Under the pieces are notes generated by a model that searched no databases, was not told the origin of the DNA, and was given only the letters and a program-made list of their open reading frames with translations. 64,000 bases of DNA, taken from assembly GCF_030691015.1 (NCBI RefSeq), contig NZ_JAUYFF010000001.1, positions 372,001-436,000 on the forward strand, read 5' to 3'. The stretch comes from Sulfuricurvum sp. GTDB taxonomy: Bacteria; Campylobacterota; Campylobacteria; Campylobacterales; Sulfurimonadaceae. Below, piece after piece: positions 15,854-34,690 of this stretch. The stretch's first letter is position 1; every line of letters starts with the position of its first letter. The position numbers were made by a program, and so were the translations under genes.

Positions 15854-17359
15854 TTAATAACCGCTATTATACACGAATAGCGTAATAACTTCCAAGAGAG
15901 GGTTTACAGTAAAGACGGCGAATATCGTTCCGACTGCCGCAATACCGATAATGGTTTTAAGGGAGAGTGATGCATTCATAAAATAGAATTGATCGTATCC
16001 CACCATCGGCTCTTTCATAAACATGAAAACGATCAGTTTAAGGTAGTAATATCCCGCGATTGCAGAGTTAAGCGCCATAATGAGAGCTAAGACCGTATAA
16101 CCGGCACTGACGGCAGAACCGATCATATATATTTTGCCCCAAAATAAACCAAAAGGAGGAATCCCTGCAAGTGAAAGCATAAACAGTGCCATCATGACCG
16201 CAGCCATCGGCATTGTTTTTACCATACCTGAGAATTTTTCATACGGATGATCCGAACTTTGTCCCGGCAAAAGATTTTTTTGACGGTTGACCCATAGCAT
16301 CGTAAAGGCTCCCAAATTGGTAAAGCTAAAGAGAGCCCAATACAAGAAAAGTCCCGTATTGGCTTGCGTCGTACCGATCAAAATAGCGGCCATGACAAAA
16401 CCGGCATGCGAGATCGAACTGTAAGCCAACATACGCTTAACATCGGTTTGTACCAATGCCCAAATATTGGATGCCGTCATCGTAACAACCACACCGATAT
16501 AGAGGATCACTTGGAGCCATACGACACCGCTATGAACCAAAAATTCAAACAGCCTCATTGCGACGACAAATCCTGCGATTTTCGGAACGATAGACATATA
16601 TCCGGCCAATGCTGCGGATGAGCCCTCATACACGTCAGGTGTCCATGTATGAAACGGAACCATAGAGAGTTTAAATCCGAATGCCGCTATCATAAACGCC
16701 ATGGATACAAGGACATAACCGATATTGCTGTAATGATCTTCCGCCAATACAGTAGCAATTTGGTTAATCTCAACCGAGCCGCTGATCGCATACAAAATCA
16801 TCGATCCGAATGCATAAAAACCTGCCGCTAAAGCACCCATTGTAAAATACTTCACTGCCGCTTCAAACGATTTTTTACGATTATGCAATGCGATAAGAGT
16901 ATACAGTGCCAATGATGCCGTCTCAAGACCGACAAAGATCAAGATAAGGTTATCGGTAGCTACCATAAATTGGAACCCTGCAATCATAAACAAGAAAAGA
17001 GCAAAATATTCCGGATAGTTATACTCATGGAAACGTTTAGAGGTCAATGCCAACGGGATGAAGAGCATCGAACCCGCAACGATGATAATTTGGGACAAAA
17101 TTGCGATCCCATCCATCAACATGACATCAAAGAACCCTAATACGGTTCCGTTTTTCATAAATAGACCGGCAAAATCGACCAATGCTCCCAAATCAAGGAG
17201 CAAGAAAAGGAGACTGATCATCACGTATAATGATTTATGCAATCCCCCTTTCACCATATCGATCACCAAAATTGCCAACGCACCGACGATGGCTATCAGC
17301 ATCGGAGCTAAGGTCGCTAAATTGAGCGACGCTAGTGAAACATTAATCGGCTCCAACAT
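15854..17359 (-). CDS. nuoN: NADH-quinone oxidoreductase subunit N
   Basis: Antiporter-like proton-pumping subunit of complex I, 501 residues and about 14 membrane segments. A Glu in [13 protein letters not shown] (segment 5 region) and Lys in the [18 protein letters not shown] segment are the conserved charged residues of the proton channel. Its ATG overlaps the nuoM stop by one base. Last nuo gene, followed by pflA. Confidence 0.95.
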
Positions 17360-18909
17360 TAGTGCGCCTCCTGCATTGGAATAATCTCATTTTTGCCTGA
17401 GAGATCAGGAATACGCGCTTTTGCCTCTTGGCTTTGCGCTTTATCGTGCATCAACTGAATGACCGATTCAACACTGTTGTTAATCGGCTCTAATACCGGT
17501 TTCGGATAAACCCCTAACCAAATAGCAACAATAACAAGAGGAATAAGTCCTAAGTACTCTGTTCTATTCAAATCTTTGAGATTTTTATTTTTTTCATTCA
17601 TTACGGTGCCAAAGAACATCTTTTTATAGGCCGCAAGCATATAAATAGCTCCGACAATAATCGCGACTCCGGCAGTCAGTGTTAACATGTGTGATTGTTT
17701 ATAAAAACCTAAAAGAGACAAAAATTCTCCGACGAAATTGATCGTAAGAGGCAAGCCAACCGATGCCATCATCATAATTCCGAAAATCGTCGCATAACGC
17801 GGCATAACCGATGCAAGCCCGCCGAATTCAGACATTAATTTTGTATGACGGCGATCATAGATAACGCCGACAAGCAAGAACAGCGCCCCCGATACAACAC
17901 CGTGTGCTAGCATCAGGAATACCGAACCGCTGACACCCTCAACGTTCAAAGCGAACGTTCCGAGGATAATAACCCCCATGTGAGAAACGGAGCTATACGC
18001 TACGACTTGTTTAATATCCTCTTGCGCATAGGCTACCATCGCCGTATAAATAATCATGATGATAGCGATAATAGCGATCGGGAACATGAAAAACACTGAT
18101 GCATCCGGAAACAACGGCAATGAGAAACGGACAAATGCATAGGTTCCCATTTTAAGCAAAATCGCCGCCAAAATAACCGAACCGATGGTCGGTGCCTGTC
18201 CGTGAGCGTACGGTAACCAGGTATGGAACGGGAACATCGGAACTTTGATCGCAAAGCCCAAGAAAAATGCTACAAATAACCACAGCTGGAAATTTTCCGG
18301 CAAAATCAAACGGTACCACTCAAGGATCGAGAAGCTCCACTGTCCTGTTGCTTGATAATAGAAATAGGCCATAAAGAGCATACCAACAAGCATAACCAAT
18401 GAACCTGTAAAGGTGTAAAGGAAAAATTTGATCGACGCATAAATACGAAGAGGCCCGCCCCATGCTCCGATGATATAGAGCATCGGTACAAGAGAGAGTT
18501 CCCAAAATACGTAAAACACGATAGCATCAAGTGCTGCGAATACACCGACCATCGTCATCTCAAGAAATAACAACGTAATAATTAAATCTTTAATACGGCG
18601 TGTTTCGGTCAATGACGCAATACCGATCAACGTGAAAAAAGTTGAAAGAATAATAATGAAAAGCGAAATACCATCGACACCTAAGAGGTAATTAATACCA
18701 AACTGCGGAATTAACGGCATTGACTCCATAAACTGCATCCCCGAAATCATCGGATCGTACGCATACCACAACCACAAAGAGAGGACAAATTCAATGAATG
18801 CTACGGCAATTCCGTACGCTCTCATACTGTCCTTTGTGACGACAAATCCGAGCATTGCAGCCAATGCCGGAAAGAAAATTAAAAGTGTTAAAATATGATC
18901 TATCATCAT
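17359..18909 (-). CDS. nuoM: NADH-quinone oxidoreductase subunit M
   Basis: Proton-pumping membrane subunit, 516 residues, about 14 segments. Conserved features are [17 protein letters not shown] with the key Glu, [19 protein letters not shown] with the channel Lys, and [10 protein letters not shown]. The C-terminus carries a short cytoplasmic charged tail. Six bases after nuoL and overlapping nuoN by one base. Confidence 0.96.
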
Positions 18910-18915
18910 TACTCC

Positions 18916-20802
18916 TTAAGCGCCAACCGCGTTGTATCCGACGGTAAAGGCAACGGCTAGTGTTATTAAAACGACTAAGCCGATAACCATCCAACGAAGC
19001 ATCGTGGAGAGATTTCCATTTTGGATATCGCGTGTATTCTCACCCGTTTTGTAGATGATATTTGCGATTCCATCGACCGTTGCATCAACGATTTTAAGAT
19101 CGATCTGTTTCCATGCGATTTTAGAGAGTTCCAAATACGGTTTAGAAAACACTTCATCATAAAATTTTGGAATGTAATATTGATTCCAGAGTAGTTTATA
19201 GCCAAAACTATTTTCCAGTTTGGAAGAGCCATCCGGAACACTGTTCCAGTTGCTGTATTTTTTATACGCAAACACAATAGCGGCAATTACAAACAACTGT
19301 GTTCCGATCGTCATAATCCAATAAGTCATTTCACCATGAACATGGTATTGAGTCGATGGAAGCAATGAGGTAACCAATTGATAATAGGTCATTTTAAATG
19401 AACCGGCAATGATCGCCAATACCAAAAGCGGTGACATCGCAACCAACATAAATTTGTATGCCTCATGCGGATGAATACCGAAAAGTTTATAACGTTCTTC
19501 CCCGTGGAAGATTAACGCGACAAGACGGAATGAATAGAATGCCGTCAGACCGGCAGTCAACAACAAGACAGTATAGATAACATAATGGTGTTCAACAAAC
19601 CCGACCTCTAAGATCAGATCTTTTGAGAAGAATCCGGCAAACGGATAGATACCTGCTAATGCAACGGAGGCAAGGGTCATCATGATAAACGTCCCTTTCA
19701 TCACTTTGCGCAAGCCACCCATTTTGAACGGATCAAGTTCATCGTGCATCGCGTGCATCACGTTACCCGCACCGAGGAAAAGGAGTGCTTTGAAAAATGC
19801 GTGCGCCATAAGGTGAAATAACGCTACCCAGTACGCACCCAGCCCAGCCGCTACGAACATATATCCCAGCTGCGAGAGGGTAGAGTAAGCAATGATACGT
19901 TTCATATCACGATTTACGAGTGCCATAGAAGCGGCAAACAATGCTACAAATGCACCGAGACTTGCGATAAAGATCCCGACATTAGGAATCAAATCATAAA
20001 TCGGATTGGCACGAACGACCAGATAAACCCCAGCGGTAACCATCGTCGCCGCGTGAATCAACGCAGAGACAGGTGTTGGGCCTTCCATCGCATCGGCAAG
20101 CCATGTATGGAGCGGAAACTGCGCCGATTTACCCATTGCACCGATAAAGAGGAAAATACCGATCCACGTTGTAACCACTAACGGAAGGTTTCCGATTTCA
20201 GCAAACACGACGTCGTATTGAAGTGAACCCGTATTCCAGTACAACAAGAAGATACCGATCAACATACCAAGGTCGGCGATACGGTTCATAATGAACGCTT
20301 CGTTTGCCGCCCATGTCGCCGACTCTTTGTGATACCAAAAACCGATGAGTCCCCATGAACAAAGACCGACCCCTTCCCATCCGATAAAGAGTCCTGCGAA
20401 GTTGTCACTCATAACGAGTACCATCATCGAGAAAACGAATGCCGAAAGCCATGAGAAGAAACGGTTGAATCCTTTGTCATGATCCATATACCCGATAGAG
20501 TAGATATGAACAACTGTGGAGACGATGGTAACGACCATCATCATCACAACACTCACTTGATCAACGACAAATCCAAACGGAATATAAAGATCCCCCGTTG
20601 CTATCCATGTCATCATCTCGACATGAACAGTGTGACCGCCCAATACGTAAGAGAGCAAAAGTGCACTGCTCACAAACGAGGTAAAGAGTAATCCCGATGC
20701 CACAATACCGACATGCTGCGATTTAGGTGATCCACCGAAAAGAGCAGCGTAAAGCGACCCTACCAGCGGAGCAAAGAGTGCAATATATAAATAAAGTTCC
20801 AT
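18916..20802 (-). CDS. nuoL: NADH-quinone oxidoreductase subunit L
   Basis: Distal proton-pumping subunit, 628 residues with about 16 segments. The lateral amphipathic helix lies in the C-terminal third. Motifs include LFIGWEGVGLCSWGLIGFW with the conserved Glu and KSAQFPLHTWLADAMEGPTPVSALIHAATMV. It follows nuoK by 3 bases. Confidence 0.97.
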   Translation of the reverse strand: MELYLYIALFAPLVGSLYAALFGGSPKSQHVGIVASGLLFTSFVSSALLLSYVLGGHTVHVEMMTWIATGDLYIPFGFVVDQVSVVMMMVVTIVSTVVHIYSIGYMDHDKGFNRFFSWLSAFVFSMMVLVMSDNFAGLFIGWEGVGLCSWGLIGFWYHKESATWAANEAFIMNRIADLGMLIGIFLLYWNTGSLQYDVVFAEIGNLPLVVTTWIGIFLFIGAMGKSAQFPLHTWLADAMEGPTPVSALIHAATMVTAGVYLVVRANPIYDLIPNVGIFIASLGAFVALFAASMALVNRDMKRIIAYSTLSQLGYMFVAAGLGAYWVALFHLMAHAFFKALLFLGAGNVMHAMHDELDPFKMGGLRKVMKGTFIMMTLASVALAGIYPFAGFFSKDLILEVGFVEHHYVIYTVLLLTAGLTAFYSFRLVALIFHGEERYKLFGIHPHEAYKFMLVAMSPLLVLAIIAGSFKMTYYQLVTSLLPSTQYHVHGEMTYWIMTIGTQLFVIAAIVFAYKKYSNWNSVPDGSSKLENSFGYKLLWNQYYIPKFYDEVFSKPYLELSKIAWKQIDLKIVDATVDGIANIIYKTGENTRDIQNGNLSTMLRWMVIGLVVLITLAVAFTVGYNAVGA

Positions 20803-20805
20803 AGC

Positions 20806-21111
20806 CTATCCTCGCATTGAATTCATTTGATCTAGGTCGATCTTACCGGTACGTTTGTACCATACGATGAGGAGACCCAACCCGATCGCTACTTCCGATG
20901 CCGCAATCGCAATAATGAAAAATGCAAACATTTGTCCGCTCAAATCGCCGATATAGTGAGAGATCGCCGCAAATGCGATGTTGGTTGCATTAAGCAAAAT
21001 TTCGGTTGCAAAAAAGAGCATCAAAAGATTTTTACGGCGCATAACCCCGACCAAACCGATAGCAAATAAAATAGTGGATAATACAAGATAATGGGATAAT
21101 GTAATTTCCAT
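20806..21111 (-). CDS. nuoK: NADH-quinone oxidoreductase subunit K
   Basis: 101 residues and three membrane segments, the usual length. The conserved intramembrane Glu residues are in LFFATEILLNATN (segment 2) and AIAASEVAIGLGLLI (segment 3); both belong to the E-channel next to the quinone module. It overlaps nuoJ by one base. Confidence 0.96.
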   Translation of the reverse strand: MEITLSHYLVLSTILFAIGLVGVMRRKNLLMLFFATEILLNATNIAFAAISHYIGDLSGQMFAFFIIAIAASEVAIGLGLLIVWYKRTGKIDLDQMNSMRG

Positions 21112-21689
21112 TAGTGTCCCCCTGCTTGTGGTTCAAAACCGTCATCCATCGTGCTGATATCTTCTTCTGCCATCAAGGTTAACGATTTGTCCATTTTTTT
21201 ACCGGCTAAAATAATTCCGCCGATCATCGAAACAAGCAACATAACGGCTGCAAGCTCAAACGGAACCAGGTATTTTGTAAAAAGAACCATACCTACCGCT
21301 TGTGAGTTACCGACTCCTTCTTGGATCGGGTAGAGGGCTTGAATATTATTGGATACGATCGGTGCAACGAAAATTGCTACTACCATGACTGCTGCCAAGA
21401 CCCCAAGAACAAAAACGATCTGAGGATTGGTCCGTTTTTCAACAACATCACGCGTTGTATCGAAGAACATCATACCGAAGGCATACAACGCCATTACCGC
21501 ACCGGTATAGACGATGATTTGGATCGCACCCAAAAAGTCGGCACCCAAAATAAAGAAAAATGCGGAGATGAAAATCATCCCTGCCGCCATTGCGGTAATC
21601 GCATACAGCGCTTGGCTCGTCATAACGGTGATAGTAAACATCACGATTGTGAGGGCCGCAAACAGATAAAAAGCGATTGCTTCAAACAT
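21111..21689 (-). CDS. nuoJ: NADH-quinone oxidoreductase subunit J
   Basis: 192 residues with five membrane segments. Segment 3 contains IVYTGAVMALYAFGMMFF, the pi-bulge helix region with conserved Tyr and Gly. It lies between nuoI and nuoK in the standard order. The last 25 residues form an acidic tail. Confidence 0.94.
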   Translation of the reverse strand: MFEAIAFYLFAALTIVMFTITVMTSQALYAITAMAAGMIFISAFFFILGADFLGAIQIIVYTGAVMALYAFGMMFFDTTRDVVEKRTNPQIVFVLGVLAAVMVVAIFVAPIVSNNIQALYPIQEGVGNSQAVGMVLFTKYLVPFELAAVMLLVSMIGGIILAGKKMDKSLTLMAEEDISTMDDGFEPQAGGH

Positions 21690-21700
21690 ACTTTGACTCC

Positions 21701-22324
21701 TTAATACGCCAACGGGGTCTTTTTGACCGACGCGTCGCTTCCTGGGATAATGGCTCCGAAGCCTGGGTATTCTGCTTGTTCACCCGCTTTTAAAAGATCA
21801 AGCGGAGTCAGCATATCGTCTTTAATGACGAAATGGGCACGTTGTTCTGAAGCATTCTCGTAACGTCCGCCATGAACGATCGCGAGTTCCGGACATACTT
21901 CGGCACAGTAGCCGCAAAAAATACAACGCCCGAGATTAATACTGTACTCGGTAACCTCTTTACGGCTGTTCTCATCGATACGGGTGTCCATACGGATACA
22001 ATCGGAGATACAAATTTTTTCGCACAATCCGCATCCGATACAACGCTCATATCCCGATTCCCACAAACGTAATAGTTTGTGTACCGCACGGTAACGCGGC
22101 CCGATCGGGAGTTTTTCAAGCGGGTATTGAAGCGTGTGAATATCGAATTTAATCATCTCACGTAGTACAACCCAAAGACCTACAAAGAGTTCTCCGTTGA
22201 ACGTACGTTTAACAACCTGCTTAAATTTATCCCATCCTTCAGTCGGATAGGTTTCGATATCGACGTAATAGTAAGCAGATGACTCGCTCACGTTACGATT
22301 CGTAAATGGTTCTTCATGATGCAT
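21701..22324 (-). CDS. nuoI: NADH-quinone oxidoreductase subunit I
   Basis: Ferredoxin-like subunit carrying two [4Fe-4S] clusters (N6a and N6b) that pass electrons to NuoB. The two Cys motifs are CIGCGLCEKIC and CIFCGYCAEVCP, spaced as expected, each completed by a Cys-Pro or equivalent of the other. It has 207 residues, with a longer N-terminal region (about 90 residues before the first Cys) that includes an amphipathic helix for membrane contact. Placed after nuoH. Confidence 0.96.
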   Translation of the reverse strand: MHHEEPFTNRNVSESSAYYYVDIETYPTEGWDKFKQVVKRTFNGELFVGLWVVLREMIKFDIHTLQYPLEKLPIGPRYRAVHKLLRLWESGYERCIGCGLCEKICISDCIRMDTRIDENSRKEVTEYSINLGRCIFCGYCAEVCPELAIVHGGRYENASEQRAHFVIKDDMLTPLDLLKAGEQAEYPGFGAIIPGSDASVKKTPLAY

Positions 22325-22336
22325 AACCCAACCTCC

Positions 22337-23326
22337 TTAGAACATCATCACGATACCGGTGATCACAATGTTGATCACCGCAATCGGCATTAATACTTTC
22401 CAACACAACCACATCAATTGGTCAGGTCGGACATCCGGCCATGCAGCGCGTGTCCATAGGAAAAAGAAAAAGAAAAACGCTACTTTTAACAGAAGCTGAA
22501 TAGCCCCGGCAATCGTACCGTCACCAAAACCGCCCAAGAAAATGATGGCGATTACAAACGAGATGAAGAACATATTGGCGTATTCACCGATGAAGAAAAG
22601 TCCCCAACGCATACCCGAATACTCCGTACCGAAACCGTCGATGATTTCGTGGTCGTTCGCAACAAGATGGAACGGTGTACGTCCCGTCTCAGCAAAAGCG
22701 GCAATCCAGAAAAGGATAAACGCTACCGGTTGTGACCATACGATCCAATTGCCGATTCCACCCGCTTGGTAGTTATTAATGTCAATTAACGACAATGACC
22801 CCACCATCATAAGGGGTGCCAATAGCGATAATCCCGAAATAACCTCATACGAAATGAAGATGGCGGCACTACGGGCAGCAGAGATCAACGACCATTTGTT
22901 CGCCGATGCCATACCCCCAAGAAGCGGTCCGTACAATCCGATGGCCATTACCCCTAAAACGTAGAGGATACCGACATTGATATCAGCGACAATCGGATGC
23001 ACTGTGTATCCGAATACCGTAAACTGAGGCCAAAACGGAATCGCAGCAGAGGCCATAAATGCCGTTGCTGCTGTAATAACTGGAGCAATTTTAAAAATCG
23101 GCTTCACAACGTTTTGAGGGATAATATCCTCTTTGGTAAAGAGTTTAATCCCATCCGCCGCAACTTGAAGCAAACCGAACGGCCCAACATGCATCGGTCC
23201 AAGACGGCGTTGCATAAACGCCAGCACCTTACGCTCAAAGTAGGTTCCAAGACCCGCAAGCGCAGAGAAAATTAACAAGATGACAACGATTTTAACGATC
23301 GTCTCTATAATGAATGCTACATCCAT
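22337..23326 (-). CDS. nuoH: NADH-quinone oxidoreductase subunit H
   Basis: Membrane subunit forming the quinone chamber with NuoB and NuoD, 329 residues, eight segments. Conserved loops include RLGPMHVGPFGLLQVAADGIKLFTKED (first cytoplasmic loop) and AETGRTPFHL followed by EIIDGFGTEYSGMRWGLFFIGEY. Three bases after the second nuoG. Confidence 0.97.
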   Translation of the reverse strand: MDVAFIIETIVKIVVILLIFSALAGLGTYFERKVLAFMQRRLGPMHVGPFGLLQVAADGIKLFTKEDIIPQNVVKPIFKIAPVITAATAFMASAAIPFWPQFTVFGYTVHPIVADINVGILYVLGVMAIGLYGPLLGGMASANKWSLISAARSAAIFISYEVISGLSLLAPLMMVGSLSLIDINNYQAGGIGNWIVWSQPVAFILFWIAAFAETGRTPFHLVANDHEIIDGFGTEYSGMRWGLFFIGEYANMFFISFVIAIIFLGGFGDGTIAGAIQLLLKVAFFFFFFLWTRAAWPDVRPDQLMWLCWKVLMPIAVINIVITGIVMMF

Positions 23327-23329
23327 GCT

Positions 23330-25816
23330 TTACACCTTTTGAATTGATACGCACGTAAAACGGTAACCGTCAAACAGTGCCTCAGAATTGATAGCGGTAT
23401 CAAATGTCGGAAGATACGAAATGTCTCCCTCGATTTTACCGTCTGTGATAACGCTAACGCTTAGCTCACCGCGTGCGGTTTTAACCCTCACCATGTCTCC
23501 TTCATTCCATCCGTTGCTTTCCATAGCTGAAGCAGATACGTATAAACCACCCGAGCCTTTAAGCTGGTGTGACATTGCCGTAAACGGTGAAAATTGGAGT
23601 ACCGGATTTGCCAAGTAAACCACTTTATCCGTGATTGCCGAATCTGCATTAAACGGTGTTACGCTTTCATCTCCGCTGACATGTACTGCGATATTCTCTA
23701 GCAGGTATCCGCGAATCTCTTCGCCGGTATTGGTGAAATGGTTCGGAAGGGTATCAAATGCCATTGCCTTGAATCCTCTATTTTCAGGAAGCTGCGCCGT
23801 ATAATCAACAGTGAATTTCGAGTTTACGCCAAGAGCATTAGCTAAATCATTCAGAACATATCCGCCGTAACCGAGTGCGGCATTGGTCGGATTCACCCGT
23901 TTATCGATGCTGAGTAATGTCCCCTCTTGCTGATTCAGAGACGGCATATCCAAATCGCCGCCGCCCATTGCACTGAGGGTGAAATCACCTGCTGTGTTGT
24001 AACCGATAGTGTAACTTCCACGTGTATTTTCAAGGTCACATATCATCGCAACACCGAGAGTATTGGAGAGATTCGGGATCATTGTGACACTAAACGGTGT
24101 GTATTTTTCAATCAATGCCACAAGACGTGCACAATTCTCAGAATGTGGATGGGTATACAAATCAGGTCCCACCATCAGGCTAAACATCTCTTTTTTCGCC
24201 AAATATTTGGTAAGGGTATCGGCAAATCCGCTCGGAGCGCTCACGAGATCGAAGAGACTATTTTCATCCACTTCCACCTCTTTTGAGATTTTTTTCTTGA
24301 TGGTTTTAGTGACCTCTTCGCTCACCTCTTCTTCGATGCCGCTCTCTTCGTTGAGTACTTTTTTGACAACCGTTTCGGTCACTTTCTCATCCACTGTCTC
24401 TTCAACCGTAACGGTTTTCATCGAATGGAACGTTGCCAAATATTCGGTGATACTTGATGGCATTGCCGCTTTATCCCCGAAAAGATCGAGCATCAAATAC
24501 AAAGCCGCCTCTTCCATCATCGGTGCATGGTTAAACTGCGTCACGTTTTTAGACATATCGGCGATAACGGGATCGTTAATCGGGTGAAAATACAACCCTG
24601 CCCCTTTGTTCATGGAGAGGGCATTGTTCATCGCGAAACGGGCATTCGGGTTATCCGTTTTGAGTGCACTTCCGATAGAGACAACGAAATCCGATTCGTG
24701 AACCTGTTTCAAATCACCGCCGTAAAGTGATTTTCCGCTGATCGTGCTGTAGCTGCTCAAAAACTTTTTAAGTGCCAGCGCTTCGTTATTCACCAATCTG
24801 TAGCCGTATTTATCGCTCAAACGTTGAAGAATCAATGCCTCTTCGTTGGTGATCGTCGAAGTAAATGCGATGGTATCGGCTTTTTTAAAGGCTGCAATCG
24901 CTGCATCAAAGGCTGCCGCATTTTTAACCACATCGCGATTCTCGAAATCGTATCCGTAACGCCCAGCACCGCAGAGGGATACATAGTTCCACTCATTTTT
25001 GACACGGTAAATTTTCTTCTCAGGATCTGTGATACTGGTATGTTTGATATCGTAGCTGAGCTGGCACCCTGCCGAACAATGGGCGCATGTTGCAGGGATC
25101 TGGGTATGTTCCCACGCATTGGAGGTGTACTGATAATCACTGCTCACCAATGCCCCGACCGGACATACTGACGTACACTCACCGCAGTTGGTACAATCAA
25201 GTCTGTCGCCGCCGTTTGGAGCAATAAGCGATTTGTTGAGTTTGTTCCACATCGCGTAGGCGTCTTTAGGCATAGACTCTTTAAATTCAGCCTCAATTGC
25301 CTCAGAGCCGCGTGCAACGGTAGAGAGTGCCGCATCCCCGATCATATCTTTACAGACGGTAATACAACGCTCACACATAATACACAAAGCCGGATCATAG
25401 TGGATTAAGCCCCAGTCTTGTGCCGGTTTATGGGTATCTTTGATCGAATACGTTTGTGAATCAACACCCACTTCAAGCGTATAGTTTTGAAGCTCGCACT
25501 CACCCGATTGGTCGCACACGCCGCACTCTAGAGGATGGTTTACATCGTAAACTTCCATAATGGCTCTGCGCTCTGCCAAAATATTCGGTGTGGTGGTCGT
25601 AATATCCATCCCCTCTTTGGCTTTGGCATTACACGCATAGACTTGCTTGCCATCGGCTTCAACCAAACAAATACGACACGCCAATGTCGGTGAACATCGT
25701 GTCAGATAGCAAATCGCAGGGATAAATATCCCGTTGGCTCGCGCCGCATTGAGGATATATTCACCCTCTTGCGTCTGAACACTACGACCGTCTATGGTAA
25801 TCGTGATTTCATTCAT
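23330..25816 (-). CDS. nuoG: NADH-quinone oxidoreductase subunit G, second copy
   Basis: 828-residue iron-sulfur subunit. It has the [2Fe-2S] ligands Cys36, 47, 50 and 62, and the N5-type His94/Cys98/101/107. A pair of ferredoxin clusters uses Cys145-155 and Cys208-218, and the N7-type set is Cys244, 247, 251 and 282. The remainder is the molybdopterin-oxidoreductase-like fold without catalytic metal. Residues about 468-520 form a Glu/Lys/Val-rich insert absent from the first copy. It overlaps the first copy by 4 bases (ATGA). Having two full nuoG genes in tandem suggests both subunits are in one complex or serve alternative donors. Confidence 0.93.
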   Translation of the reverse strand: MNEITITIDGRSVQTQEGEYILNAARANGIFIPAICYLTRCSPTLACRICLVEADGKQVYACNAKAKEGMDITTTTPNILAERRAIMEVYDVNHPLECGVCDQSGECELQNYTLEVGVDSQTYSIKDTHKPAQDWGLIHYDPALCIMCERCITVCKDMIGDAALSTVARGSEAIEAEFKESMPKDAYAMWNKLNKSLIAPNGGDRLDCTNCGECTSVCPVGALVSSDYQYTSNAWEHTQIPATCAHCSAGCQLSYDIKHTSITDPEKKIYRVKNEWNYVSLCGAGRYGYDFENRDVVKNAAAFDAAIAAFKKADTIAFTSTITNEEALILQRLSDKYGYRLVNNEALALKKFLSSYSTISGKSLYGGDLKQVHESDFVVSIGSALKTDNPNARFAMNNALSMNKGAGLYFHPINDPVIADMSKNVTQFNHAPMMEEAALYLMLDLFGDKAAMPSSITEYLATFHSMKTVTVEETVDEKVTETVVKKVLNEESGIEEEVSEEVTKTIKKKISKEVEVDENSLFDLVSAPSGFADTLTKYLAKKEMFSLMVGPDLYTHPHSENCARLVALIEKYTPFSVTMIPNLSNTLGVAMICDLENTRGSYTIGYNTAGDFTLSAMGGGDLDMPSLNQQEGTLLSIDKRVNPTNAALGYGGYVLNDLANALGVNSKFTVDYTAQLPENRGFKAMAFDTLPNHFTNTGEEIRGYLLENIAVHVSGDESVTPFNADSAITDKVVYLANPVLQFSPFTAMSHQLKGSGGLYVSASAMESNGWNEGDMVRVKTARGELSVSVITDGKIEGDISYLPTFDTAINSEALFDGYRFTCVSIQKV

Positions 25817-28065
25817 GATCCACTCCCCATCTTCATAATTTTCACCTTTTCAAAACGGTATTGTTCGCTTAGCGCACCGAATTCTTCATCGTATGTCGGA
25901 ACCAACGCTACTGTCCCTTTTAATGAAGTATCGAGTTTAAAAATCCTCTCTTGCGTCTTACCGGCAAACTCAATTTGAATTTTATCACCATCACCGATTT
26001 TTGCAGCAGCGGCAAACTGTGCGGAACCGCGTAAAGTTGTATCTTTTTCAAGCTGTTCAGTGCGCGCCGTATAACTGTTAAACTGGTTCACCGGATTACA
26101 GCGATAGACAACCGTTCCGTTAAACTCCGGTAAATCGGCAATCTCTTCGAGCTTACCGTTTGTGTCGACATCACAATTTTCGAGCATATAGCCTCGATTA
26201 TCATCACCCAACACACTGTAGAAATTACCCAAATCATCGAATGATTTTCTCTCAAATCCTTTTTCACGAGGCAGTTCAATGGTGTAATCAATGGTGTTTT
26301 CTGCTTTAACACCGAGGGCATTTGCAAGGTCGTTGAGGGTGTACCCCTTAAATGCTACCGCTACATTGGTCGGCAATACGTGATAGTTGATACTGACGAA
26401 TGTCCCCTCTTGGCTGTTGAGTGCTGCAAGCGGAAGCATCGCATCCCCGAATGAGCCTATCGTGTAGCTTCCCGCTGCATTGTAACCGACAACATTTCCG
26501 TTGCCATTATCTACATCCAAATCACAGATAAGCGATACACCGACGGTATTGACATTTGTAGGTATTACCACAACCGAAAACTCGGTATAAGTCTCAATCA
26601 TGGCACAAAGACGTGCAATATTGGAGGAGCGTTTATGGTTCAATACATCGCTTCCGATCACAAGAGTTTTTCGTTTCGCTCTCTTCATCGATTGGGCAAT
26701 TCGCGTAAACTCTTCATCACCGACATTGCTCTCAGCGCACAAATACCCCTCGTCAAGTTCTTTGAAATACTCACGGTTCTCTTCGCTGATATCTGCACCC
26801 TCAAGGAGGGTTGAAGCTAACATGGCAACGACACCCTCTTCAGTTCCCACTTCGTATTTCACAAACTGGGTTACAACGTTTTGAAGCAGTTCATCTTCAA
26901 GCGGATGCATATAAACGACTTTTGCACCTCTATGACGTGCTGCCGTCGTTACAGCATAACGGACGACCGGATTATCGGTGCTGATACGTCCACCGAGAAC
27001 AATGATCCCGTCGCTTTGGGTAATGGCATCAAGAGTTCCGCCGAATCCGCTCTTACCGCTGATTGAACTGTAAGCCGCCATAAAACTCTGATACGCACGT
27101 GCTTCTTCGTTGTAGAGCTTAAGCCCCGTTTTTTCTTTGAGGCGTTGAAGAATCAAAGCCTCTTCGTTGGTAATGAGTGAACTGAAACGAATCGCTTCGG
27201 CGCTCTTTATCGCATGGATTGCCTTTGCAAATTCCGCTTCGTCTTTAGAGGCTTGGTGATCGAAATCAAAACCGAATCGTCCCGCACCGCAAAGGGTCGT
27301 GTGTTCAAAATCATTGGTAACACGGTAGATACGATCTTCTCCGTTGCTCGTCGAGGTGTGTTTTACCTCATAGCTCAATGAACACCCTGCCGAACAATGA
27401 ACACACGTAGCAGGTACTTGAGAAAGTTCCCATGCATTCGCACTATACTGAAATTCCGAACTGACCAATGCACCCACCGGACATACCGCGATGCATTCGC
27501 CGCAAAACGTACAATCGAGAACATCGCTGTTTTTCGGTATGACGGAAGATTTGTATCCCCCAAATTGAAGGGTAATTGCATCGTCACCGATAATTTCATT
27601 ACAGACGTGGACACATTTTTCGCATAAAATACACAATGAGGGATCGTAGTTGATCAATCCCCAATGCTCGATGTGGCGGAGCTGATCTTTCGCACTGAAG
27701 TGCTGTGCCGAAACGCCGAACTCTAATGTTTTATTTTGAAGATCACACGCACCCGATTTGTCACACACGCCGCACTCTAACGGATGATTCACATCATAAA
27801 GACGCATAATATTCGTTCGTTCGGTTTTTAAACGATCCGAATCGATGGTAACGGCTAGCCCCTCGGTCGGAGGAGTTTGACAGCTGAGAATCAGTCCGTC
27901 GGTTTTATCGGTTTCCACCACGCACAAACGACATGATGCACATGGGGTTGTTTTTTCCAAATAACACATCGTCGGGATATAAAATCCAGCTTTCCGTGCC
28001 GCTTGGAGAATAGTCTCCCCTTTTTGTGCCGTTACGGGTTGATTGTTAATCGTAAAGTTAATCAT
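25813..28065 (-). CDS. nuoG: NADH-quinone oxidoreductase subunit G, first copy
   Basis: 750 residues from the ATG at 28065, which has AAGGGGGG just upstream and begins the ferredoxin fold directly; a longer in-frame start would add ten unrelated residues. [2Fe-2S] ligands are Cys34, 45, 48 and 62, followed by HPLECGVCDKSGACDLQ, two ferredoxin cluster motifs and the N7-type CVHCSAGC. It shares the whole domain order with the second copy, so the two are paralogues from duplication. It follows the NuoF-like flavoprotein by 10 bases. Confidence 0.93.
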   Translation of the reverse strand: MINFTINNQPVTAQKGETILQAARKAGFYIPTMCYLEKTTPCASCRLCVVETDKTDGLILSCQTPPTEGLAVTIDSDRLKTERTNIMRLYDVNHPLECGVCDKSGACDLQNKTLEFGVSAQHFSAKDQLRHIEHWGLINYDPSLCILCEKCVHVCNEIIGDDAITLQFGGYKSSVIPKNSDVLDCTFCGECIAVCPVGALVSSEFQYSANAWELSQVPATCVHCSAGCSLSYEVKHTSTSNGEDRIYRVTNDFEHTTLCGAGRFGFDFDHQASKDEAEFAKAIHAIKSAEAIRFSSLITNEEALILQRLKEKTGLKLYNEEARAYQSFMAAYSSISGKSGFGGTLDAITQSDGIIVLGGRISTDNPVVRYAVTTAARHRGAKVVYMHPLEDELLQNVVTQFVKYEVGTEEGVVAMLASTLLEGADISEENREYFKELDEGYLCAESNVGDEEFTRIAQSMKRAKRKTLVIGSDVLNHKRSSNIARLCAMIETYTEFSVVVIPTNVNTVGVSLICDLDVDNGNGNVVGYNAAGSYTIGSFGDAMLPLAALNSQEGTFVSINYHVLPTNVAVAFKGYTLNDLANALGVKAENTIDYTIELPREKGFERKSFDDLGNFYSVLGDDNRGYMLENCDVDTNGKLEEIADLPEFNGTVVYRCNPVNQFNSYTARTEQLEKDTTLRGSAQFAAAAKIGDGDKIQIEFAGKTQERIFKLDTSLKGTVALVPTYDEEFGALSEQYRFEKVKIMKMGSGS

Positions 28066-28075
28066 CCATCCCCCC

Positions 28076-30112
28076 TTAATGTGCGACCATCGCAATATAG
28101 TAACAACGCATACAGCGTTCCGCCTCTGCGAGTGCCTCTTCTTGTGTAAAACCGTATTTCACTTCACGATTGTTATCGCGCCGTTCATCCACCGTGAGCA
28201 CTTCACTGTGTTGGCGCGGCAAGCCTGGAAGCCACCCTTGAATTTTCTCTTTTTTATCATAGACTTTGAGTTTACGGAGGTGATCTTCCATAATCTCATC
28301 ATCACTTAGAGTGATTTCACCGCTTAGCACATAGCGTGACATGACCGATGCGGCACGCTTGGCCTGACCGACGGCATTAACAATCGTCATCGGACCGTAT
28401 TCACAATCCCCCGCCGCAAAGATTCCTTTACGTGAGGTCATATAATCTTTTCCATTCGTTTTGATCGTCGCCCATGAGGTACGCTCGATCTCCCACTCTT
28501 CAGGGAGAAGTTTCAAATCGGCACTTTGAGAAACGGCAGGGATGAGATAATCGCACTCCATCTCAAAGCTTGCCCCTTCCACTTTTTCCAATGTCGGACG
28601 TCCGCCGTTCGGATCGGGAACCAGTTCAAAACGATCAACGATCAATGATTTGAGAACATCATTCTCATCCTTCATCGCCGCAACGGCAGAGTGGAAAATA
28701 AATTCAACACCCTCTTCGACCGCTTCGTGATACTCTTCATACGTCGTATTTTTAATAATTGTCGCTTCATCACGACGGTACAACATCACCACTTTTTTGG
28801 CATTTGCACGGATTGCACAGCGGACAACGTCCATAGAGGTAAATCCGCCCCCGACACACACCAGTGTTTTACCGGTTAAATCAACGAAATCCGCCGGTAG
28901 CATATGACGTTTTTGATCGGCTTCGGGAACCATGATGTCGTATTTAACTTGGAGGTTCACTTTATCCAAAAAGTCGATGGCACCCCAATATCCTTGGATT
29001 TCAGGACGCTCATTGTCACAATAGACTTTTTTCGAGATACGGGTACCGGTAGCGACCAGCGTTGCATCATACTCATTCTCAAAACGGCGCATCATATCAG
29101 CGGTGACTTTGGAGTTCGTGATAAAATTCACCCCAAGGCTTCGAACGGCTTCGATATCCTGATTGTATTTGTCGATCGGCATACGGTATTCCGGAACTCC
29201 GACCGCTACTTCACCGCCGAGAACCGGAAGCTCTTCATAGACATCGACGTCGATACCATCCAGCGCTAAATAATACGCTCCCGCAAGTCCCGCAGGACCC
29301 GCACCGATAACGGCTACTTTTTTACCGAGGGAAGGTTTTTTCTCGCTCGGATGAAAGAATCCAAATCCGTGATCGGTCTCATAATCGGCACCCAGACGTT
29401 TGAGTTCCATGATCGAAATCGGCTCGTCAAGGTTTGTACGGCGACACTCGCTCTCACACGGGTGAGGACAGACACGTCCGCAGGTATGGGCAAGCGGCAT
29501 CGTTTGACGGGTCGCCATCAATGAATCATCAAAACGTAAATCGCGTACACCCTCGATATACGCCGGAATATCGACATGTGCCGGACACGCATCCATACAC
29601 GGAGCGGTAATTTTCGCGATATAGCTGGTATCTTCCAAATGGTAATGCTTGGACGGTTTTTGGTTCTCGATACATGCCATGAATTCTGATTCAAAGTGAG
29701 TCATAAGATCAAGCAATGGAGTAGGAACGGTTTTACCAATCTCACATTTAGAGGTCTCCTGCATCGTTTTAGAGACCTCGCGCAGGTGTTCCATATCAGA
29801 AACGGCACCTTCACCGCGAGCGATTTTATCGAGCAAATCGTACAAAATGCGTCCGCCCCATCGTCCCGGTGCACAGCGTCCGCACGCTTCGGAATAGACC
29901 TGATACTGCGCCGCATATTCTGTTGCAAGACGAACCACATCCACATCAGGATTAAAAAGCGCCACTCCGTCCCAACCGATAAACGCTTTGGAATGGGCGT
30001 GTTCATTGTATTCCAACGGAAGGTTATAAGCAGAATTTTCCCAAGCATCGTCAGCTTTGCCGATGTTGTTGATCTGCTCACCCCGCCACGTGGAGAAATA
30101 GACTTTACTCAC
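28076..30112 (-). CDS. NuoF-like domain fused to GltD-like FAD oxidoreductase
   Basis: 678 residues in the place of nuoF. Residues 1-150 resemble the NuoF cluster-N3 region (EACGRC at 76-80), but the third Cys of CGxCxPC is Gly83, while a Cys123 could be the fourth ligand. From about 165 on it is a glutamate-synthase-small-subunit type protein. Cys172 and Cys176, then Cys211, 215, 219 and 223, are its cluster ligands; the FAD loop GAGPAG is at 270-275, and a second dinucleotide loop is GGGFTSMD. No FMN/NADH site of true NuoF is seen. It probably receives electrons from NAD(P)H, ferredoxin or flavodoxin and hands them to the NuoG pair. Confidence 0.82.
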   Translation of the reverse strand: MSKVYFSTWRGEQINNIGKADDAWENSAYNLPLEYNEHAHSKAFIGWDGVALFNPDVDVVRLATEYAAQYQVYSEACGRCAPGRWGGRILYDLLDKIARGEGAVSDMEHLREVSKTMQETSKCEIGKTVPTPLLDLMTHFESEFMACIENQKPSKHYHLEDTSYIAKITAPCMDACPAHVDIPAYIEGVRDLRFDDSLMATRQTMPLAHTCGRVCPHPCESECRRTNLDEPISIMELKRLGADYETDHGFGFFHPSEKKPSLGKKVAVIGAGPAGLAGAYYLALDGIDVDVYEELPVLGGEVAVGVPEYRMPIDKYNQDIEAVRSLGVNFITNSKVTADMMRRFENEYDATLVATGTRISKKVYCDNERPEIQGYWGAIDFLDKVNLQVKYDIMVPEADQKRHMLPADFVDLTGKTLVCVGGGFTSMDVVRCAIRANAKKVVMLYRRDEATIIKNTTYEEYHEAVEEGVEFIFHSAVAAMKDENDVLKSLIVDRFELVPDPNGGRPTLEKVEGASFEMECDYLIPAVSQSADLKLLPEEWEIERTSWATIKTNGKDYMTSRKGIFAAGDCEYGPMTIVNAVGQAKRAASVMSRYVLSGEITLSDDEIMEDHLRKLKVYDKKEKIQGWLPGLPRQHSEVLTVDERRDNNREVKYGFTQEEALAEAERCMRCYYIAMVAH

Positions 30113-30121
30113 TACGTTTCC

Positions 30122-30346
30122 TTATTTCTTGACCACAATGGTCCAGTCAGCTTCGTTGAATTTCAACGAGTTCATGAGCTCACATCCAAGCTCTTTAACC
30201 AAATCAGCGGATTGCTGTACGGGGGTAAAATCACCGATTTCAAACAAGAAAATCAATACTTCACCGCTCACCGCTTCTTCTTTGATAATAGTGGACATGC
30301 GGCCTGCAAAATTCTCTTTTAAATGACGTAAATCATAACGTTTCAC
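30122..30346 (-). CDS. Small NuoE-position protein
   Basis: 74 residues. It sits where nuoE should be but is under half the normal length and has a single Cys, so it cannot bind the NuoE [2Fe-2S] cluster. Small proteins at this position (HP1264/Cj1575c, from memory) are annotated as NuoE-like in Campylobacterota nuo loci. The fold looks alpha/beta (VLIFLFEIGDF, then a helix and DWTIVVKK). It probably helps dock the atypical NuoF-like subunit. It is 12 bases after nuoD and 9 before the flavoprotein gene. Confidence 0.75.
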   Translation of the reverse strand: MKRYDLRHLKENFAGRMSTIIKEEAVSGEVLIFLFEIGDFTPVQQSADLVKELGCELMNSLKFNEADWTIVVKK

Positions 30347-30358
30347 TGCATGCTCCTT

Positions 30359-31585
30359 TTAGCGGTCTACTTCACCGAAGACGATGTTAGTCGTCCCGAT
30401 GATAGATACAACGTCCGGAATGTAGTGACCCGGCAGTAAGTCGGTCAAAATTCCGGTGTGCCAAAATGACGGCGCACGGAGTTTTAGACGGTACGGATAA
30501 GCTCCCCCTTGGCTGTTAATGTAATAGCCAAGTTCCCCTTTAGGTGATTCGGTCGCCACATAAACCTCTCCTACCGGAGGACGCATCCCCTGAGTCACGA
30601 GGACAAAGTGCTGCATCAACGAGTAGTTTTGGGTCATGATGTCGATTTTCGGTGCCGAGATGTATTGCGGTGCATGCGCCATGAGCTCAGGTCCAGTCCC
30701 CTCATACATATCGATCACTTGATACAAAATTTTCGCAGACTCGCGCATCTCTGCCATGTAGAGTTTATAACGGGCATAGTTGTCCCCTTTGTCGGAGACC
30801 GGAACGTTGAACTCCACTTCGTCGTAGAGTTCATACGGCTCCTCTTTACGGATATCCCACTCAACGCCTGAAGCACGGAGCATTACCCCTGAACATCCCC
30901 AGCTAAGCGCCATCTCTTTAGAGATAACCCCAACGTTCTCCATACGCATCAACCAAATACGGTTGGTATCGAGAAGGTCTTCGTAGTCTTTGATGTTTTC
31001 CGGCAATTTATCGAGGAATTTACGTAAATCCGCAATGAAATTATCAGGGAGATCAAGCGGTACCCCGCCGATACGGATTGCCGCATGGGTTAGTCGCGCT
31101 CCGCAATAATCTTCGATCAAATCCATCAAGTATTCACGTTCACGGAATGCGAACAAGAACACCGTCATAGCCCCGATATCCAGAGCCGTCGTCGCCAACC
31201 AGAAAAGGTGGGACATAAGGCGATTCGTTTCCAAAAGCATCATACGGATCACTTTGGCACGACGAGGAACGTCAAGCCCGATGAGCTCTTCTACCGCCAA
31301 TGCAAAGCCGTAGTTGTTTGAGCTTGAAGCGATATAGTCCATACGGTCGGTTGTCGGCATGAACTCATTATAGATCATGTTCTCCGCCATTTTTTCCATA
31401 CCACGGTGAAGATATCCGATATCCGGATGGGCTTTCGTGATTTGCTCTTGCTGCAAATGGAGCATTAAACGTAATTGACCGTGTGCCGAGGGGTGTTGAG
31501 GCCCGAAGTTAAGGATCAGTTCATTATCGTCGCGGTCAAACGTAATATTTTCAAAAAAAGGTCGTAATCTATTGGCTTGTTGCAT
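30359..31585 (-). CDS. nuoD: NADH-quinone oxidoreductase subunit D
   Basis: 49-kDa-type subunit lining the quinone site, 408 residues. Features are [15 protein letters not shown] near residue 27 with the quinone-site His, then GYLHRGMEK and the C-terminal DIVFGEVDR-type ending (here NIVFGEVDR). It is full length and separate from nuoC. No functional [NiFe] ligands remain, as normal for NuoD. Confidence 0.97.
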
Positions 31586-31596
31586 ACTGTAATTCC

Positions 31597-32403
31597 TTAA
31601 CGATCGCGATCAGAGATCACGACGCTTTTTTCTGCGTCAAATTTTTGGATGAGGAATACACCCTCATTCTCTTGGTAACACAATGGAGTATCCGGTTCAC
31701 CTTGAGAGATGTCGGCACCGCGCGGTACTTCGTGACCCAAACGCGAAAACCGCTCGGTATCGTAGCGATCCACTCGCGCCGAATCACGGTTTTCAGGCCC
31801 GATAATCTCGCGTGCTTCTTTTCCGAAAATTTTGTCCACTTCATACCATTGGGCAAACTCATCCCCTTGAAGAGGATAGGTTTTACGAAGTGGGAACCCT
31901 TCCCAGTCATCCGGCATCAAGATACGTTTCATAAACGGATGGTTGTTCACCACTACACCAAACATATCGTACATCTCACGCTCAGACCAGTCGGCAGAAC
32001 GGAAAAGAGAAGAGAGACTTTGAATCGACTCTTTTTCATCAATTTTGCATTTCACACGAATACGTTTACGCTTGGACATACTGAGCATTTGGTAGAAAAT
32101 CTCAAATTTTCCCTCTTGCGCCAACCAGTCGATCGCTGATAATTCAGAGAGCTGATTGTACTCAAGCTCATTTTTCATGAGTTCAATAACTCCGAAGTTA
32201 TTCGCTGCATTGATCACAACAACCATTTGTTTCACTTGGATATAGGCATCCAAAACTTCAAATTTTGCTTTGATCGCTTCGAGATCCGCAGCGAATACCG
32301 CATCTGCAGAGACATCGCTTTTCGCTACCTGAGGGGCAACCCAGTAACGGTCGGTGTAATAGGGTTTTTTCTGTACGTCGTCTTTAGGGGTGTAAGCTCT
32401 CAT
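31597..32403 (-). CDS. nuoC: NADH-quinone oxidoreductase subunit C
   Basis: 30-kDa-type subunit, 268 residues. The conserved core is [19 protein letters not shown], then [24 protein letters not shown] near residues 157-180. The C-terminal 80 residues extend beyond the E. coli-type domain, a feature of this phylum. One-base overlap with nuoB. Confidence 0.95.
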
Positions 32404-32912
32404 TACATCAACCTTTTTGGTTTTTGAGCGCGAGATGCACTCTCACGTCGAATTTTTTGTTGTAGCAATAATACTGCGTACTGAAGTGTCTCAGGGCGTG
32501 GAGCACACCCCGGGAGATACAAATCGACAGGGATAACACGATCAACCCCTTGAACGGTTGCGTAGGTATTAAACATCCCGCCCGTGTTGGCACATGAACC
32601 CATAGAGATAACCCATTTAGGTTCGGTCATTTGATCGTACAGACGACGGATAAACTCCGCATGTTTTTTCGTCAATGTTCCCGCAACAACCATAAGTTCT
32701 GCTTGACGCGGAGAAGCACGGAAAATCGTACCGAAACGGTCGAAGTCGTAACGGGATGCACCCGAAGCCATCATTTCAATACCGCAGCATGCCAAACCGT
32801 ACGTCAATGCCCAGATGGAGTTTGACCGACCCCAGTTAACTACTTTGTCAATCGTCGTCAACGCAACGGGAAGCCCGCCGTCTTTCAGATAATTTACTTG
32901 ATGTTGTGCCAT
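32403..32912 (-). CDS. nuoB: NADH-quinone oxidoreductase subunit B
   Basis: Carries the terminal [4Fe-4S] cluster N2 that reduces quinone. Ligand Cys residues are visible in LACCGIEMM (the tandem Cys pair), [10 protein letters not shown] and LPGCAPRPE. The start is set at ATG 32912 with a GGGG site upstream, giving 169 residues; an upstream GTG in frame would add seven. It overlaps the end of nuoA by 19 bases. Confidence 0.96.
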
Positions 32913-33283
32913 TCGAGAGCCCCTTTCTTCCACGCATAAACGAAACCGATTGCCAGCAATAAGATGAACATCATCATCTCAACGAATCCAAACCAGCCTA
33001 ATAGTTTAAAATCGATTGCCCATGGAAACATAAAAACAATCTCCACATCAAACAATAAAAACAACAATGCGAACAGATAAAACTGCGTTGAGATACGGTT
33101 CGGTTGCTTCGTTACCTCCGGTCCACATTCGTAAACCGTAAGTTTAATTTTTTCAGTATCTTTAGCCGCTAATGCTCGGCTCGCGATCCGCGCAATGACG
33201 GTTGTGGCATAAAATGCACCAAACGTTAACACAAACAGTACAAATACCCCAAAATAGGGATTTGCTACGTTGTAATGCTCCAT
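32894..33283 (-). CDS. nuoA: NADH-quinone oxidoreductase subunit A
   Basis: 129 residues with three membrane segments (about 9-29, 69-88 and 95-115). The loop [11 protein letters not shown] contains the conserved Glu-Cys-Gly of the quinone-site loop, as in the Y-E-C-G motif of NuoA/ND3. First gene of the 14-gene nuo operon. Confidence 0.96.
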
Positions 33284-33595: not shown

Positions 33596-34690
33596 TCAGT
33601 TTTTTTCTTGAAGCATCCGATCAAGTGTAGCGAACACACCGTCACTTGCATGTTCCATCTCTTCAAACACTTTTACAAATCGCTCAGATCCGAGATCTTC
33701 ACTCTTCATCAGATCAAAGATTTTATGGGTAGAGTTATGGACAACGGAGTGGGGAGATTCAAGGGATGAATAGCTTGGTGTATGTTTGAAGAAATCGGAG
33801 CCTTCACCTTCATAATACCATTTGCCCAAACGACAATTATGGTGATCGACAAAATTAAACTGCTCTTTTTTAGTGACCGCAGAAAGATAGGTATTTACTT
33901 TCCAGACAATATGATCCAATTTTGCCAAACTCATAAAGACCCGCTCTGCCGTATGTTCGGTGCTGGCAAATGTTTCACGCATCATCTGTGCATTATGATC
34001 CATATTAGCATTAAAGCTTCCGATTGATTCGTTTGATTCTTCGATACTCTCTTGGACTTGCTCAAATTTATCGCCGATAGTCGTAACATCTTGTTTCATC
34101 GACTGCAATGAGATGTTGATCTCACTGATCGCTTTATCCGTTCTATCCGCCAGCTTACGTACTTCATCCGCGACGACCGCGAACCCTCGCCCATGTTCTC
34201 CCGCACGCGCCGCTTCGATTGCGGCATTGAGGGCTAATAGGTTTGTTTGATCAGAGATATCTTTGATCAGCACCAAAATACTCGCTACGTCTTGCGCACG
34301 TTCCGATAGAGCTTTAACCGTCTCCATAGATTCCAATGCCAGAGCATTCAACCCTTCCAACGTATGTGAAATACCCGATGCTTTATGACCAAGCTCAACA
34401 ATATTTCCCAGTAACTCCGTGGATTGAGCAATATGTTCTTTAGAAGAAGAGACCGATGAAGCCATATTGCCTTGAACATCGATAAGATTTTTTTTCAGCT
34501 GCTCATTTTGATAGGTCATAATGGCCGACGCATTTCCGCATCGATGCCGCTCATCCTCTTCTACGATCTTCGTTTCACACTCATGAAGTTTAAGGGAGAG
34601 TTCTTGATTTTGCTCCCGAAGTGCACTATTCTCTTTTTGTAGCTCTGCGAGGTCTTCTCTCAGCCGTGTATCATCACTAAACCAACCCAT
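33596..34690 (-). CDS. Soluble methyl-accepting chemotaxis protein with zinc-binding CZB domain
   Basis: 364 residues, no membrane segment, so a cytoplasmic chemoreceptor. An N-terminal coiled coil (10-45) leads into the signalling hairpin, whose tip [35 protein letters not shown] spans 147-181. A C-terminal CZB domain holds a candidate 3His/1Cys zinc site: His260, Cys286 in CRLGKWY, His314 and His318. This is the layout of H. pylori TlpD, which senses oxidants or energy stress. It stands alone next to the nuo operon. Confidence 0.92.

Follow-up and report, generated by a model that had tools for sequence, protein, structure and literature searches.

The nuo operon described here, from Sulfuricurvum sp., apparently a free-living sulfur bacterium (contig NZ_JAUYFF010000001.1; positions 15854..33283, minus strand, of the 64,000-nucleotide stretch of DNA that was analysed, hereafter the window), carries two complete nuoG genes in tandem, preceded by a fusion gene in the slot of nuoF. 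The gene order is nuoABCD – 74-aa protein – FUS – GA – GB – nuoHIJKLMN: FUS (28076..30112, minus strand) encodes a 678-amino-acid (aa) fusion of a NuoF-type N3 cluster domain with a GltD/StnC-type flavin adenine dinucleotide (FAD)/NAD(P) module; GA (25813..28065, minus strand) a second full-length NuoG of 750 aa; and GB (23330..25816, minus strand) the usual epsilonproteobacterial-type NuoG, of 828 aa with an ATG start. Most bacteria have a single NuoG, and textbook complex I combines one NuoG with an NADH module. What the operon encodes is a modified complex I rather than a machine of a new type, and we think it likely that it builds one complex whose NADH-input half has been replaced, with FUS and GA as an added NADP(H)-entry module and GB as the ordinary NuoG that hands electrons to NuoI. 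Interpreting the GA–GB pair requires FUS and the 74-aa protein, a relative of Helicobacter pylori HP1264, neither of which was mentioned when the pair was first noticed.

The original prediction, that two complete nuoG genes stand in tandem within one nuo operon, is borne out by the open reading frames (ORFs), by the cluster ligands, and by the NCBIfam and Pfam matches. Both proteins carry, as had also been predicted, the full ligand sets for a [2Fe-2S] cluster (C-C..C-C), for N5 (HxxxCxxCxxxxxC), for two ferredoxin-type clusters (two CxxCxxCxxxC motifs) and for N7 (CxxCxxxC...C); the ligands for N1b, N4, N5 and N7 that mark a complex I NuoG are present in GA as well as in GB. E. coli NuoG, read by the same motifs, has one CxxCxxC in its ferredoxin domain, so that GA and GB each have one potential cluster more. 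The NCBIfam NuoG model NF006305 scores the pair at 1163 and 901 bits (cut-off 591; GA taken as a 760-aa ORF), the more general TIGR01973 leaves both below its cut-off (198 and 248 vs 470), and the Pfam domains Fer2_4 and NADH-G_4Fe-4S_3 are above cut-off in GA and GB alike. The two genes overlap by exactly four bases (ATGA, 25813..25816), again as first read. The mechanical ORF of GA, from which the 760 aa derive, opens at TTG 28095; its likely start is ATG 28065, the end coordinate originally given, which lies behind a ribosome-binding-like stretch (GGGGGGA) and yields the 750 aa.

An AlphaFold2 model of GA (predicted local distance difference test, pLDDT, 86.4; predicted template-modelling score, pTM, 0.87) has a NuoG/formate dehydrogenase fold: it matches whole chains of both families, formate dehydrogenases ranking first in both fold lists, and superposes on E. 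coli NuoG (7nz1_G) with a template-modelling score of 0.77 by query and on Thermus 4hea_3 with Z 24.9 and a root-mean-square deviation (rmsd) of 3.4 over 649 residues. GA is the full-length fold prediction; the structure predictions were made from 25 of the 39 GA and 24 of the 39 FUS sequences introduced below. Compared with each other, the window's GA and GB share 52% identity over the Fe-S half and 40% over the remainder. A Lys/Glu-rich insert (residues about 468-520) sets GB apart from GA, and GB also has the longer stretch between the two ferredoxin motifs (residues about 178-207).

FUS and GA occur together. In a class sample of 121 genomes, all of the window's order, FUS (counted as full or nearly full at 611 bits or more) is found in 24, and the same 24 have GA adjoining, one GA being cut by a contig end; nine further matches to the FUS profile reach 174 bits or less and cover the GltD part alone. 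Among the 97 genomes without FUS, 77 have a PF10588 match (74 one, three two at distant places), and an adjacent pair is found in none of the 77. A second draw of 200 genomes of the phylum, overlapping the first, gives 46 genomes with a match at E 1e-70 or better, and a scan with the FUS N-terminal alignment returns, among the best 80 of 584 confirmed stretches, 79 attributed by title to Campylobacterota or to a member of the phylum, the last being titled just 'bacterium' (L226). The annotations of FUS-bearing genomes presumably list two nuoG genes. For closer comparison 39 loci with FUS and 20 without were read, comprising all 24 of the first sample and others chosen, non-randomly, for spread. 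The order nuoABCD – 74-aa protein – FUS – GA – GB – nuoHIJKLMN is kept in the 39 (L114 stops at a contig end inside GA and L113 before nuoN; GB is split in L143).

Across these loci both proteins look maintained. All 20 ligand positions are intact in 37 of the 39 GA proteins; of the 56 unbroken GB proteins, 55 or all 56 have the ligand at any given N1b, N5 or ferredoxin position. The Fe-S halves are under purifying selection, with dN/dS (nonsynonymous over synonymous substitution rate) of 0.04-0.07 for GA and 0.03-0.06 for GB, values computable for four of five pairs and with dS near saturation. Intact ligands and low dN/dS rule out GA as a pseudogene. They also make it very improbable that GA is a leftover duplicate of little function, retained by chance or for structure alone, a notion that would fit the repeated trimming of GA described below and the loss of several of its ligands in L113 and L149; against it stand the completeness of the 20 positions in 37 of 39 proteins across families and the low dN/dS of the Fe-S half. 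The N7 cysteines of GB are lost in 16 of the 56 unbroken proteins, from several families (L113, L115, L124-L134, L148, L157, L158), and the GB gene of L143 and that of L156 each fall into two reading frames, through a real break or an assembly error.

The loci without FUS provide the main argument for placing both NuoGs in one particle. In 19 of these 20 loci, a protein of 230-343 aa lies between the small protein and GB, in the place of GA. By single-sequence search it matches the window's GA in 19 of 19 cases and the window's GB in none, and by profile comparison it is closer to GA (E 8e-53) than to GB (E 6e-22); it covers GA residues about 356-515 and 655-760 (numbering of the 760-aa ORF), and while the 19 proteins have 2-11 cysteines, the CxxCxxC and HxxxCxxC motifs are both absent from them. 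By these comparisons of sequence, the 230-343 aa protein is the C-terminal part of GA with the Fe-S half gone. Since this C-terminal half is kept beside GB where the wire of GA has disappeared, GA is best understood as a subunit of the same particle as GB, in which its C-terminal half would also serve as a structural piece.

The same loci bear on the idea that GA and GB are interchangeable NuoGs of two alternative complex I forms, built for different donors. Both proteins are complete by their ligands, and GA by its predicted fold as well, as such an arrangement would have it; yet the two belong to old, separate clades, with the identities of 52% and 40% given above, and the 20 loci without FUS retain GB but have a shortened GA or none. 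A motif of the type LDxGYLSAES, moreover, occurs in 27 of 39 GA proteins (by a stricter pattern) and in 18 of the 19 remnants, and in no GB row. We regard two alternative complexes as improbable. The original prediction had left the choice open between these and a single complex with a longer wire, perhaps for two electron donors; the former fits poorly and the latter fits, in that GA goes with FUS and 19 of the 20 FUS-less loci still have the C-terminal part of GA next to GB.

By its operon place and by the HP1264 match of its neighbour, the remnant would correspond to Cj1574c/HP1265 ('NuoY'). Passages of PMC4178425 state that cj1575c and cj1574c stand in for nuoE and nuoF in Campylobacter jejuni and that Cj1574c, probably with Cj1575c, accepts electrons from flavodoxin, a result of Weerakoon and Olson 2008 that is cited in parts of PMC4178425, PMC6682613 and PMC11238625; PMC6682613, in the passages concerned, names the pair nuoXY and describes A. 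butzleri as having nuoEF in place of nuoXY. The neighbour itself, the protein in the nuoE slot, is in the window a relative of HP1264 (PDB 2lxr) of 74 aa with a GTG start (30122..30346, minus strand). A protein of this type occupies the nuoE slot in all 59 loci read (39 with FUS, 20 without), and its relative in L124 matches HP1264 (2lxr) at 8e-17 in a PDB search; HP1264 has been reported to bind flavin mononucleotide (FMN). The three genomes with two distant PF10588 matches (G056, G061 and G109) carry, far from the nuo operon, two genes about 9-13 kb apart, one for a NuoG-like protein (507-516 aa) and the other with a PF01512 match (418-425 aa); the nuo operons of these genomes contain the HP1264-type protein and the GA remnant. 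L135 (G008) and L155 (G012) have a different, shorter complex I-like operon with a NuoG-like protein of 459-478 aa.

FUS combines an N3 cluster domain (residues about 27-147; PF10589, 71 bits) with a GltD/StnC-type module (about 169-671), which Pfam resolves into Fer4_20 and a pyridine-nucleotide flavoprotein module and which carries cysteines for two 4Fe-4S clusters. The FMN/NADH domain of NuoF, PF01512, is not among its Pfam matches and finds no match in the window's genome, nor does it in 33 of the 39 FUS genomes. Its closest solved relatives are, by sequence, the NfnABC subunit 9bov_A, the Nfn subunit 4ylf_B, StnC (8oh5_C) and archaeal NfnABC 9n5u_A, and, by predicted fold (pLDDT 82.0, pTM 0.78), 9bov_A (Z 40.2, rmsd 2.5, 461 residues), 8oh5_C (Z 39.0, rmsd 2.5, 460 residues) and 9n5v_A. 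The eight cysteines of the GltD module are kept in 39 of 39 proteins and probably form two cluster sites, C172, C176, C667 and C670 on the one hand and C211, C215, C219 and C223 on the other. This grouping follows from the C-terminal end of FUS, which aligns with GltD-type relatives: 4ylf_B has the motif of the first two cysteines near its start and FUS has it at the extreme end, where residues 642-670 align to 14-42 of 4ylf_B, weakly when taken alone (13.8 bits, E 0.12), and the same end aligns unbroken in 9bov_A, 8oh5_C and 9n5u_A. K238 and R310 of FUS, invariant in 24 aligned rows, pair with K170 and R239 of StnC, as counted in the alignment, and the pattern GGGFTSMD..R...R...YRR is kept in 39 of 39 proteins.

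These features suggest that FUS and GA would make up a module comparable in its working to the NADPH side of the Stn/NfnABC transhydrogenases. The FAD of the GltD part would oxidise NAD(P)H, presumably in the form of NADPH (or, in reverse, reduce NADP+), and electrons would pass through the two 4Fe-4S clusters of FUS to its NuoF-type cluster domain, from there through the Fe-S chain of GA to GB, and via NuoI to quinone. Where relatives lose FUS, the Fe-S half of GA would be lost along with it, and the C-terminal half would stay as the small protein in the nuoF slot. That FUS and GA form instead a soluble Stn/Nfn-like NADPH oxidoreductase (e.g. NADPH:ferredoxin or NADPH:flavodoxin), encoded in the nuo operon but working off complex I, is a thought prompted both by their co-occurrence and by the transhydrogenase subunits that are the nearest solved relatives of FUS; we consider it unlikely, as the genes are closely packed among the other nuo genes of the operon, with GA overlapping GB, as the StnB-type partner domain (PF01512) is without a match in the window's genome, and as such an enzyme gives no reason why 19 of 20 FUS-less loci keep a C-terminal piece of GA next to GB.

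The history of the pair can be followed on trees. A core tree of seven core Nuo proteins, made by a quick method from 58 loci that were not picked at random, contains 38 loci with FUS and full-length GA and 20 with neither; it requires six switches between FUS-type and remnant-type, at least five of them required by firmly supported (starred) branches, and in each of five independent pairs the change in FUS is accompanied by that in the Fe-S half of GA. In a tree of GA and GB (64 rows chosen for spread from 39 GA and 60 GB rows, namely 24 GA, 37 GB and 3 outgroup), the two proteins form separate clades, each running through the families; the GB clade includes the NuoG of families without FUS. 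A recent duplication within the genus is ruled out by the separate clades across families. Whether the duplication is as old as the phylum had been posed with the original prediction; for the order sampled here the tree gives part of the answer, placing it before the split of the sampled families (support 92-94). Because both clades run through the families and the remnant is a GA, the tandem state is probably the older one and the switches probably losses rather than gains, judging from the sequences. L114, which has missing genes, was left out of the core tree, L156 belongs to neither type and lies outside the six switches, and L135 and L155 are outside the core tree and the GA/GB alignments, serving as outgroup rows in the GA/GB tree; the broken GB of L143 and L156 is outside the GB tree.

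Several observations weigh against a single complex fed through FUS and GA. In FUS the N3 motif (residues 77-123) reads CGRCxPG in 39 of 39 proteins, as compared with CGWCTPC in E. coli NuoF: glycine replaces its third cysteine, and the other three are kept. The N3-type cluster may therefore be altered or absent, and the electron step from FUS to GA is insecure. The preference of FUS for NADPH is suggested by its motif and relatives alone. In L113 and L149 several cluster ligands of GA are lost, and in L156 the remnant has gone entirely, so that the C-terminal half of GA is not strictly needed. The sign test on the independent pairs yields p = 0.0625 only, and joint loss is the weaker evidence of shared function because FUS adjoins the 5' half of GA, where a single deletion removes both. 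The support of the GA and GB clades, 94 and 92, is not starred and falls just short of firm. Distances, correlated over 37 loci given the core distance (L114 and L143 not included), single out no pairing of FUS with GA, the N-terminal part of GA scoring 0.68 with that of GB and 0.69 with the GltD part of FUS, and do not discriminate. Finally, GA is a putative subunit of the assembled complex, placed there on the evidence of genes.

An extension of the single-complex reading, possible but distinctly more tentative, gives one proton-pumping complex two doors: NADP(H) would enter via FUS and GA, and flavodoxin or ferredoxin via the HP1264-type protein, the C-terminal half of GA, and GB; relatives without FUS would still use the flavodoxin/ferredoxin door. 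If so, a reverse run from the quinol pool could supply CO2 fixation with NADPH and with a low-potential carrier in reduced form, or couple both, and the complex I of Campylobacter and Helicobacter would be a one-door stump in which the nuoF-slot protein is the remnant of a second NuoG. If FUS and GA do sit on complex I, the wire is doubled, and pyridine nucleotides enter by a different route, in many free-living Campylobacterota that oxidise sulfur and hydrogen; this would matter for the way these bacteria obtain reductant for CO2 fixation. The nuoF-slot protein of Campylobacter and Helicobacter would likewise have a possible origin, as a second NuoG that lost its clusters on several occasions. 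Autotrophy as a driver of FUS was considered by way of ATP-citrate lyase (PF16114), found in 30 of 39 FUS genomes (nine are without a match) and 2 of 20 without FUS, and set aside: the switches of the two hardly ever coincide on the tree (in the same direction in 0.3 of 5 pairs on average), and no link is claimed. In the open-licence literature (titles, abstract starts and passages), neither a tandem NuoG in Sulfuricurvum, Sulfurimonas or Sulfurovum nor the nuoF-slot protein as a NuoG remnant was found; subscription genome papers (e.g. on S. denitrificans) may mention the pair.

The remaining genes of the operon, all on the minus strand, frame the module on both sides. Upstream lie nuoA (32894..33283), nuoB (32403..32933), nuoC (31597..32403) and nuoD (30359..31585); downstream follow nuoH (22337..23326), which like these four is named by a family-library match, nuoI (21701..22324), named in the same manner, whose product has two 4Fe-4S motifs and is the presumed acceptor of electrons from GB, and nuoJ, K, L, M and N (15854..21689), named by operon position. 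Just downstream of nuoN, an ORF of 785 aa (13473..15830) contains DUF7494 and tetratricopeptide repeats (TPR), and just upstream of nuoA (33596..34690) is encoded a signalling protein of the methyl-accepting chemotaxis protein (MCP) type with a zinc-binding CZB domain.

Among the known systems that come close is the complex I of Campylobacter and Helicobacter (nuoX/nuoY; Cj1575c, Cj1574c, HP1264): there, too, as described in the literature, nuoE and nuoF are replaced, and an HP1264-type protein of 74-84 aa or so occupies the nuoE slot. In the families without FUS, the NuoG belongs to the GB clade and the nuoF-slot protein is a C-terminal piece of GA; the window, by contrast, adds FUS and the whole Fe-S half of GA, and with them a flavoprotein for pyridine nucleotides plus seven or more further potential clusters. 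With the standard NuoF/NuoE module, FUS shares the nuoF slot and the C-terminal N3 domain of NuoF; it differs in that the third N3 cysteine is glycine, a GltD module stands instead, and the window's genome is without a match to the FMN/NADH domain. The large subunit of the transhydrogenases, StnC of Sporomusa ovata StnABC or its NfnABC counterpart (8oh5, 9bov, 9n5u), resembles FUS in its GltD-type NADPH/FAD module, which has two 4Fe-4S clusters and delivers electrons to clusters of the NuoG type; the last CxxC of FUS aligns with the point where the GltD part of StnC ends. In the passages of PMC10482914 that describe it, StnC holds GltD and NuoG in one polypeptide with a straight path from the NADPH-FAD site into the NuoG clusters, needs K170 and R239 for activity, and passes electrons to a NuoF-like bifurcating pair; in the window, FUS and GA are separate genes, the N3 domain is on FUS, the setting is a nuo operon, and there is no PF01512 protein in the genome. 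NUO-2 of Nitrospina gracilis also departs from standard complex I by additional Fe-S clusters in its NuoG and NuoF (NuoG2/NuoF2), and the corresponding passage of PMC3578206 proposes reverse electron flow to ferredoxin for it; there NuoG2 and NuoF2 belong to a second Nuo complex, unlike the single operon with two NuoG genes seen here. For Nautilia, a passage of PMC2628731 proposes that a partial complex I drives electrons in reverse to NAD(P)H, and a flow of this kind would suit an autotroph.

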